64,000 bases of DNA from Rhizobium sp. J15 (GTDB taxonomy: Bacteria; Pseudomonadota; Alphaproteobacteria; Rhizobiales; Rhizobiaceae): assembly GCF_002531825.1 (NCBI RefSeq), contig NZ_NWSX01000028.1:1-64000 (forward strand), written 5' to 3'. Made by a program: the position numbers and the translations under genes. Below, one piece after another: positions 8,722 to 62,572 of the stretch; the stretch's first letter is position 1, and each line of letters opens with the position of its first letter. The notes beneath the pieces are model-generated. The model did no database searches, was not told the origin of the DNA, and saw only the letters and a program-made list of their open reading frames with translations.

Positions 8722-9603
8722 ATGTCCAGTCATAATGCAGCCAAGTCAGGCACCTTCAAGATCGGCGGCGATATCGAGATCAATCGTCTCGGTTTCGGCG
8801 CCATGCGCGTCACCGGCAAAGGTATCTGGGGCAAGCCGGAGGATCACGACGAGTCCATCCGCACGCTGAAGCGTCTGCCGGATCTCGGCGTCAACTTCAT
8901 CGATACGGCCGATTCCTACGGGCCGGATGTTTCGGAGTGGCTGATCAAGGAGGCGCTGCATCCCTATGGCGGCAAATCCATCATCGCCACCAAGGGCGGC
9001 CTCACCCGCCACGGCCCCGATATCTGGCTGCCGGTCGGCCGGCCCGAATATCTGATCCAGCAGGCGCATAAGAGCCTGCGCAATCTGGGGCTCGAGCAAA
9101 TCGACCTCTGGCAGCTCCACCGCATCGACCCGAAGGTTCCGGCCAAGGAGCAGTTCGATGCGATCAAATCGCTGCTCGATGCCGGTCTCATCCGCCATGC
9201 GGGTCTGAGCGAAGTCTCCGTCGCCGATATCGAGGCCGCCTCGAAGCACTTCAAGGTCGCAACCGTCCAGAACCGCTACAATCTCGTCGACCGCACCAGC
9301 GAGGACGTGCTCGACTACTGCGCCAAGCACAATATCGGTTTCATCCCCTGGTATCCGCTGGCCGCCGGCGATCTCGCCAAGCCGGGCTCGCTGCTCGATA
9401 CGATCGCCAGGAAGTACGGCGCCGCGCCGAGCCAGATCGCGCTCGCCTGGGTGCTGAAGCGCAGCCCGGTGATGCTGCCGATCCCCGGGACCTCCAAGGT
9501 CAAGCATCTCGAGGAAAACGTCGCGGCCGTCGACATCACGCTTTCCGACGAGGAATTTTCGGCGCTGGACGCCGAAGGCAAAAAGCTCTTCAAGGCCGCG
9601 TAA
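8722..9603 (+). CDS. Aldo/keto reductase
   Basis: A 293-residue TIM-barrel NADPH oxidoreductase. The catalytic tetrad is represented by [10 protein letters not shown] (Asp and Tyr near residues 54-60), a lysine in IIATKGG and a histidine in LWQLHRID. The C-terminal cofactor loop is [13 protein letters not shown]. The start at 8722 (MSSHNAAK) follows AGGAGAGG and is preferred to the ATG at 8689. Substrates of this family are small aldehydes and ketones; none can be named here. Two hairpins lie downstream, before the small RNA. Confidence 0.85.
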
Positions 9604-9625
9604 CGACCAAGGCGGAAATCCAAAT

Positions 9626-9678
9626 GGCCGCGCCACGGGCGCGGCCGTCACGCCGATGCATTTATCGGCATTTTTTTT
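9626..9678 (+). terminator. Double hairpin terminator after the aldo/keto reductase
   Basis: First hairpin: GGCCGCGCC/GGCGCGGCC (9626-9646) with a three-base loop. Second hairpin: GCCGAT/ATCGGC (9652-9669), followed by eight Ts at 9671-9678. The second is a standard Rho-independent terminator and separates the reductase from the RNA gene. Confidence 0.85.
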
Positions 9679-9734
9679 GACCAATCGATCAAATATGCCG
9701 CAAAATGAGGCGTCATCTGCTGTTTCGCCCCTAA

Positions 9735-9763
9735 GCATTGCGTGTAATGCATTGCTGCATTGC
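9735..9763. promoter_or_regulatory. Three GCATTGC repeats upstream of the small RNA
   Basis: GCATTGC occurs at 9735-9741, 9749-9755 and 9757-9763. The last two lie within the symmetric AATGCATTGCTGCATT. They sit 50-75 bases before the first hairpin of the RNA, the right region for an activator or repressor site. No known regulator is assigned. Confidence 0.35.
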
Positions 9764-9810
9764 GGTAATTTCGCTATTCCCGATCAAATGAATGGGGTAC
9801 TTATATCTCC

Positions 9811-9928
9811 GTAAGCAGCGCACTCCTCCTCCCAGCGCTCTTACATCGGACTGACAACACTCCTCCTCCCAGTTGTCAGTCAGGATCAAGAGCCTGGCGC
9901 ACCTCCTCCCGCGCCAGGCTCTTTTCTT
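9811..9928 (+). ncRNA. Triple-hairpin small RNA with CCTCCTCCC loops (cuckoo/CcsR type)
   Basis: Three adjacent hairpins each carry CCTCCTCCC in the loop (9825-9833, 9862-9870, 9902-9910), while the stems are unrelated to each other. Hairpin 1 spans 9811-9844 with one bulge. Hairpin 2 is a perfect ten-base stem (9849-9858 with 9872-9881). Hairpin 3 is a perfect 13-base stem (9888-9900 with 9911-9923) followed by T-rich sequence, so it also terminates. This is the described consensus of the alphaproteobacterial cuckoo family (two to four hairpins sharing this loop), known in Rhodobacter as stress-induced CcsR RNAs. The loops are complementary to Shine-Dalgarno sequences, which suggests interaction with mRNA leaders or sequestration. 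The 5' end and promoter are not determined; TTATAT at 9801-9806 region is a possible -10. Confidence 0.85.
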
Positions 9929-10085
9929 TTTCACCGTCGAAATGAATCCATTGCACCCTGCTTGCGAGCGTCATCCTGGCGTAGTCGGAACCGTCACCTG
10001 GCCTTCTCGAAAGCTGGAAGGCCATACGACGGGCGCGATGTCTTCCGCCCCGCCGAACGATTGAACGGGAGGGTCCGTTGGATCC

Positions 10086-62496: not shown

Positions 62497-62572
62497 TGGT
62501 GCCGCTTACGTGACTCGAACACGTGACCCCATCATTACGAATGATGTGCTCTACCGACTGAGCTAAAGCGGC
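62497..62572 (-). tRNA. tRNA-Thr (anticodon CGT)
   Basis: A 76-base cloverleaf including an encoded CCA. The acceptor stem is GCCGCTT/AAGCGGC with discriminator A, the D-arm is AGCTCAGTCGGTAGAGC-like, and the anticodon stem-loop CATCA-TTCGTAA-TGATG puts CGT at positions 34-36, reading the threonine codon ACG. The T-arm GTTCGAGTC is normal. Confidence 0.97.

Follow-up and report, generated by a model that had tools for sequence, protein, structure and literature searches.

An additional member of the αr14 (NfeR1) small RNA family in Rhizobium sp. J15

Introduction

A cuckoo RNA, as Reinkensmeier and Giegerich reportedly put it in 2015, is a row of two to four adjacent hairpins with CCUCCUCCC in each loop. 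Among the closest described systems are the αr14 RNAs, whose members are ~123-nt, Hfq-independent transcripts that silence mRNAs via their loops. Their founder is NfeR1 (Smr14C2, SmelC397) of Sinorhizobium meliloti, and the family is described as three hairpins with an identical, ultraconserved CCUCCUCCC and highly different stems (PMC10746234). Three- and four-hairpin models, RFMSmelA075 and RFMSmelA099, had been given for RNAs with several copies per genome (Reinkensmeier 2011, PMC3927594); they describe the same family, and nothing of substance differs. S. meliloti has six copies, only one of which was reliably detected by northern blot, and NfeR1-type loops pair with translation initiation regions, some transporter mRNAs being reported as silenced (PMC7143759). 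Silencing of ntrB by the NfeR1 loops in S. meliloti was found in reporter and western assays with loop mutants as control (PMC10746234). A term search of PMC12218461 gave no mention of αr14-type RNAs.

CcsR1-4 of Rhodobacter sphaeroides (RF02791), found with CcaF1 (DUF1127), share the loop word with αr14 but have a two-hairpin model and are processed from a DUF1127 operon (PMC10253847). In alphaproteobacteria, short proteins of the DUF1127 type often go together with CcsR-like RNAs, an association that bears the label CIN1 (PMC10253847).

Here we compare with these systems an RNA locus in a stretch of 64,000 nucleotides from Rhizobium sp. J15, called the window below.

Results

Three hairpins carry one loop word

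A first-pass annotation made from the letters had placed at 9811-9928 three hairpins with unrelated stems and an identical nine-base loop. Word counts and folds confirm the hairpins and their common loop, and the coordinates are correct to within a few bases (Table 1). CCTCCTCCC occurs exactly three times in the window, always on the + strand, and is unpaired in every loop. The chance expectation is 0.85 per window, and three copies anywhere in the window were reached by 3 of 100 shuffles. All three hairpins are stable, with folding z scores of -5.7, -4.2 and -7.6 from the first to the third; for the whole stretch z is -9.75, with none of 200 shuffles equally stable. The stems are indeed unrelated, as their 5′ arms are no closer to each other than shuffled arms (P = 0.78, 0.20 and 1.00).

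Judged by its sequence, hairpin 3 with its T-rich tail is probably an intrinsic terminator. It is missing from the simple terminator scan because its loop has 10 bases and the scan admits loops of 3-8. No promoter was listed at the RNA by the promoter/terminator scan. Two small ORFs cross the RNA, 9731-9934 on the - strand and 9873-10064 on the + strand; the covarying stems described below favour the RNA over both.

Table 1 Features at the RNA locus of the window
Feature	Position	Strand	Basis or remark
Aldo/keto reductase gene (name by reading), the usual upstream neighbour, outside the RNA	8722-9603	+	
Terminator-like site after the reductase gene, separating it from the RNA	9652-9669	+	Terminator scan
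Upstream box TGCG-N6-GCAT (9739-9752), overlapping GCATTGCTGCA (9749-9759); candidate LsrB-type LysR-regulator site	9739-9759	+	
Possible -10 region TACTTATAT	9798-9806	+	Suggested by a reading of the orthologue alignment only
αr14 (NfeR1-type) small RNA, full-length Rfam match	9805-9926	+	RF02344, 118.8 bits, model 1-123 of 123
Hairpin 1, CCTCCTCCC at 9825-9833	9811-9844	+	-12.6 kcal/mol; both-side changes in 2 of 10 pairs (orthologues)
Hairpin 2, CCTCCTCCC at 9862-9870	9849-9881	+	-14.7 kcal/mol; both-side changes in 3 of 10 pairs
Hairpin 3, CCTCCTCCC at 9902-9910, then T-rich tail	9888-9923	+	-26.0 kcal/mol; both-side changes in 3 of 13 pairs

The RNA belongs to αr14

A covariance search, which the first-pass annotation had named as a check, was run by Rfam scan and gave a full-length match to RF02344 (ar14), far above the cut-off of 58.8 bits. 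The CcsR1 model of Rhodobacter (RF02791) came second to ar14 with 31.3 bits, less than half its cut-off of 65.3 bits, over hairpins 1-2 (E = 7.9e-6). Nowhere in the genome does this model reach its cut-off, with four places matching at E 0.01. As a positive control, the SmelA075 place on S. meliloti pSymA matches RF02344 at 1220690-1220808 with 89.9 bits, and its published location is 1220693-1220808 (PMC7143759). Matches to Scr3202, mraW, FsrA, ctRNA_pGA1 and Acido-Lenti-1 at the locus are below their cut-offs and were regarded as chance.

The window RNA consists of adjacent hairpins with CCUCCUCCC loops, as cuckoo RNAs do, and has the αr14 anatomy in full: three hairpins, the word unpaired in all loops, and variable stems. 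With NfeR1 it shares the length, this anatomy and the occurrence of several copies per genome, and its form is that of RFMSmelA075. The RNA at 9805-9926 is thus an αr14 RNA of the NfeR1 family and not a CcsR RNA, CcsR membership having been rejected with a score under the cut-off and no DUF1127 match on the contig of the window (C36). From the earlier reading as a cuckoo/CcsR RNA, the cuckoo type with anti-Shine-Dalgarno loops was retained and the CcsR part dropped. The RNA is real but ordinary, an additional member of an already catalogued rhizobial family.

Loops are kept and stems covary at the locus

Conservation was followed in 87 stretches fetched by the RNA, 7 from the source genome and 80 from relatives; the latter were taken by score from the best matches listed, so that weak copies are under-represented in all counts over 87 and over the 17 described next. 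Seventeen stretches represent the window locus, as recognized by the reductase gene, by a downstream hydrolase gene (names by reading) or by both (12 stretches). Three of them are looser members (L060, L074 and L138), with the reductase partial and distant, or 83-86% identical, and the hydrolase not seen.

All 17 copies have three exact loops. In their stems 99.5% of cells pair, and both-side changes occur in 8 of 33 pairs. The paired cells, the both-side changes and the covariation score were reached by none of 500 shuffles, and the number of pair types by 52 of 500. In slid controls pairing falls to 31-45%, a comparison that favours the unslid version, the structure having been taken from the sequence of the window.

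A second sample was chosen by the reductase protein with the RNA score ignored, which removes the RNA-score bias. It consists of the 30 highest-ranking matches to that protein; for 10 of 40 genomes no locus was fetched there. The RNA is present in 23 of the 30 neighbourhoods, and each of the 23 has three exact loops. Loss of the loop in relatives that keep the stems, which the first-pass annotation had named as refuting its reading, was thus not seen in any of these 69 loops. The other seven neighbourhoods comprise two in which the contig stops shortly after the gene (L345 and L349), one whose RNA is 2.0 kb off and lies outside the fetched flank (L348; compare L060), and four without an RNA within 1.5 kb of the reductase gene (L350, L351, L352 and L359).

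A conserved box lies upstream

GCATNGCTGCA is found 77 bases before loop 1 in 16 of the 17 window-locus copies and 75-77 bases before it in all 18 copies of another locus, named C85 after its contig in the source genome. Overall it occurs in 47 of the 87 copies and in none of 87 control stretches downstream. Taken together, the exact loops in 23 of 23 reductase-chosen copies, the covarying stems and this box point to selection acting at the window locus.

NfeR1 has an LsrB site, TGCA-N6-GCAT, at -72 to -60 (PMC10746234). GCATNGCTGCA overlaps TGC[A/G]-N6-GCAT, which coincides with the NfeR1 site if transcription starts near 9811, as the sequence leads us to infer. The window copy would thus share with NfeR1 an LsrB-like box at matching distance, and LsrB may bind there, by analogy with the published site. 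The exact TGCA-N6-GCAT is present in 6 of 17 window-locus and 8 of 18 C85-locus copies and is one base off in the window; as a pattern it is loose, and at the C37 locus 11 of 20 control stretches have it too.

The NtrC site of NfeR1, TGC-N11-GCA, lies near -101 to -116, has been reported only from symbionts, so that it does not define the family as a whole, and is not evident in the Agrobacterium and Brucella homologues (PMC10746234). At the published place the motif is found in none of the 17 window-locus copies (one has it elsewhere, at -171), whereas 10 of 18 C85-locus copies have it there, counted from the equivalent of a start near 9811. Among the 87 control stretches 6 have it too, and half of these belong to the window locus (3 of 17). 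In the source genome the C85 box reads TGCCGATAATATCGGCA and gives a hint of an NtrC site. The difference between the two loci suggests that the window copy may escape NtrC control. At the C37 locus, TTGCACTGCA stands further upstream instead, in 19 of 20 copies.

The genome holds seven matches

In the 6.67-Mb genome, ar14 matches seven times, once on each of seven contigs. Genome-wide there are 12 pairs of CCTCCTCCC spaced 15-45 nt apart, whereas the reversed pattern gives none. Every one of these pairs falls within or overlaps an ar14 match, with six of the seven matches involved. Three copies (C28, C52 and C81) have an additional 5′ hairpin, which makes four as in RFMSmelA099, and the extra loop on C81 is TTCCTCCC. 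In the C45 match, loops 1 and 3 no longer contain the word.

Matches at E 0.001 were found in all 40 Rhizobium genomes examined (source genome included), 3-9 in each. At the level of the order, searched with stricter filters, 46 of 150 genomes match at E 0.001, and 22 of 150 have a match above the cut-off. Over all copies, loop 2 is exact in 87 of 87, loop 1 in 84 and loop 3 in 67, with the six weakest of 93 matches left out. Exact third loops were counted in 7 of 18 copies at the C85 locus, 12 of 20 at the C37 locus and 17 of 17 at the window locus. Family-wide, then, the word is not fully conserved.

DUF1127 genes adjoin other copies

The first-pass annotation had the RNA standing alone after a reductase terminator, with no DUF1127-type gene beside it, and both points hold: a terminator-like site lies between gene and RNA, DUF1127 has no match on contig C36 (six matches are elsewhere in the genome), and no DUF1127 gene is in the 17 fetched stretches of the window locus. 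(The DUF1127 survey labelled 15 window-locus copies by the reductase alone; the box survey labelled 17 by the reductase or the downstream hydrolase.) The setting was also said to differ from the Rhodobacter prototype. This is true for the window copy but not special to it, as 55 of 87 copies in the genus have no DUF1127 gene in the fetched stretch.

The remaining 32 of the 87 do have one. Of the six other copies in the source genome two are near DUF1127, the C28 copy just downstream of one such gene and the C37 copy upstream of two. In other genera of the family and order, a DUF1127 gene is found at 6 of 10 loci (eight genomes); a single sister genus has, in three genomes, the order DUF1127, then two or three tandem RNAs, then a TrmFO-like gene (name by reading). 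Gene order thus lends support to the αr14-CcsR link. For the window copy, the best reading is that of a family member that has dispersed and stands alone.

At the C37 copy (G000:C37, stretch L040), a further CTTCCTCCC hairpin with a terminator was seen at the 3′ end of the first DUF1127 gene, ~620-735 bases past the first loop of the copy. It gives weak R1-model matches at the C37 copy and in L102, L114 and L133 (22.8-26.6 bits). Possibly it is a remnant of a DUF1127-linked RNA.

Ribosome sites of transporter genes fit the loops

Any loop of this kind would be expected to be complementary to Shine-Dalgarno sites. Genome-wide, GGGAGGAG-N4-11-ATG occurs at 49 sites, against 4 for the pattern read backwards. 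After two alternative starts were dropped from 37 frames, 35 sites open frames of at least 60 codons, among them 12 solute-binding proteins, one amino-acid permease and one ABC ATPase. A control ribosome-site word gave no solute-binding protein and one ABC ATPase in 20 frames; this control is imperfect, as it covers a single word and only the first 30 of its 113 sites, with Pfam matches lacking for 9 of the 20 frames. Solute-binding proteins thus stand at 12/35 against 0/20 (Fisher P = 0.002), at 12/31 against 0/11 among Pfam-annotated frames alone (P = 0.018), and all transport proteins at 14/35 against 1/20 (P = 0.005).

The gene taken as ntrB from its place before ntrC has GGGAGG ahead of its start, where a stronger stretch of 8 nt is described in S. 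meliloti, and may be a weaker target. Incidentally, a GDYXXLXY-family gene upstream of the C37 RNA also has a GGGAGGAG ribosome site (G000:C37:29894-29909).

Discussion

We consider it very probable that the window copy is a stand-alone, trans-acting αr14 RNA with its own promoter, whose loops silence many mRNAs, chiefly those for solute uptake. In such a mechanism the RNA would be transcribed from this promoter to the terminator formed by hairpin 3, any of the three exposed C-rich loops would pair with GGGAGGAGG-like ribosome binding sites, and the pairing would block translation initiation of the target mRNAs. Transcription, loop-mRNA pairing with silencing, and activation by LsrB would be as in NfeR1, from which we infer them for the window copy. 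On the evidence of its upstream sequence it would be free of NtrC control; the place that an NtrC-like box occupies in the C85 copy holds none here. Its position beside the aldo/keto reductase gene may be another difference from NfeR1.

That the locus is instead a silent, decaying paralogue, with its structure inherited and its transcription lost, as may hold for most S. meliloti copies, is unlikely. The single S. meliloti copy detected reliably by northern blot (PMC7143759), the C45 match without the word in two loops, and the 4 of 30 reductase neighbourhoods without an RNA within 1.5 kb would all agree with decay. The window locus looks otherwise: its loops are exact in 23 of 23 cases where the RNA is present, its stems covary, and 16 of 17 copies retain the upstream box. 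The reductase-based sample in particular strengthens the case for selection.

It is very unlikely that the RNA is a CcsR of the Rhodobacter type, processed from a DUF1127 operon and active under heat and oxidative stress. The loop word is the same, the CcsR1 model does match hairpins 1-2, two other copies lie near DUF1127, and in related genomes ar14-like RNAs directly follow a DUF1127 gene. Against this stand the 31.3 bits where 65.3 are needed, the failure of all four genome matches to reach that cut-off, the lack of DUF1127 on the contig and in the 17 window-locus stretches, and the terminator-like site between the RNA and the preceding gene. The same terminator-like site, together with the conserved upstream box, also speaks against a structured repeat (REP-like or mobile) or a 3′ end of the reductase mRNA, either one having no regulatory function of its own. 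Several copies per genome and a same-strand gene ahead of the RNA would suit such an origin, but there are only seven matches, several with neighbours conserved in many species, and we regard it as very improbable.

With a stand-alone αr14 RNA as the preferred reading, one more well-conserved locus joins a family reported to act in nutrient uptake and nodulation. The seven matches, mostly with near-identical loops and with differing upstream boxes, offer a set in which the retention of several copies by rhizobia can be studied, and the DUF1127 genes near other copies connect αr14 with the Rhodobacter CcsR/CIN1 arrangement. The upstream regions differ from copy to copy, with LsrB-like and NtrC-like boxes at C85, an LsrB-like box only in the window, a different box at C37 and two copies beside DUF1127. 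Tentatively, the αr14 copies of one genome might have an interchangeable working end and different inputs, forming one silencing module that reports several stresses and was dispersed from a CcsR-type DUF1127 locus; we hold this to be possible, with doubt prevailing.

Some further observations concern the surroundings of the RNA. The reductase protein is closest, at 96%, to that of Rhizobium vallis among the named records matched, the nearest genomes possibly being omitted. Window positions 9600-9960 resemble 364 plasmid records, mostly of Rhizobium and Sinorhizobium, and the 20 records listed match over the RNA. Directly after the RNA terminator, from 9932/9954 to ~13408, lies a segment of ~3.45 kb with F420-type NADP reductase-like, SnoaL-like, quinone oxidoreductase-like and LysR-like genes (names by reading). 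It was not found in the fetched stretches of the six relatives compared, including the closest, L076, and L079 has ~0.5 kb of other sequence in its place. A tRNA gene is located at 62500-62572 on the - strand.
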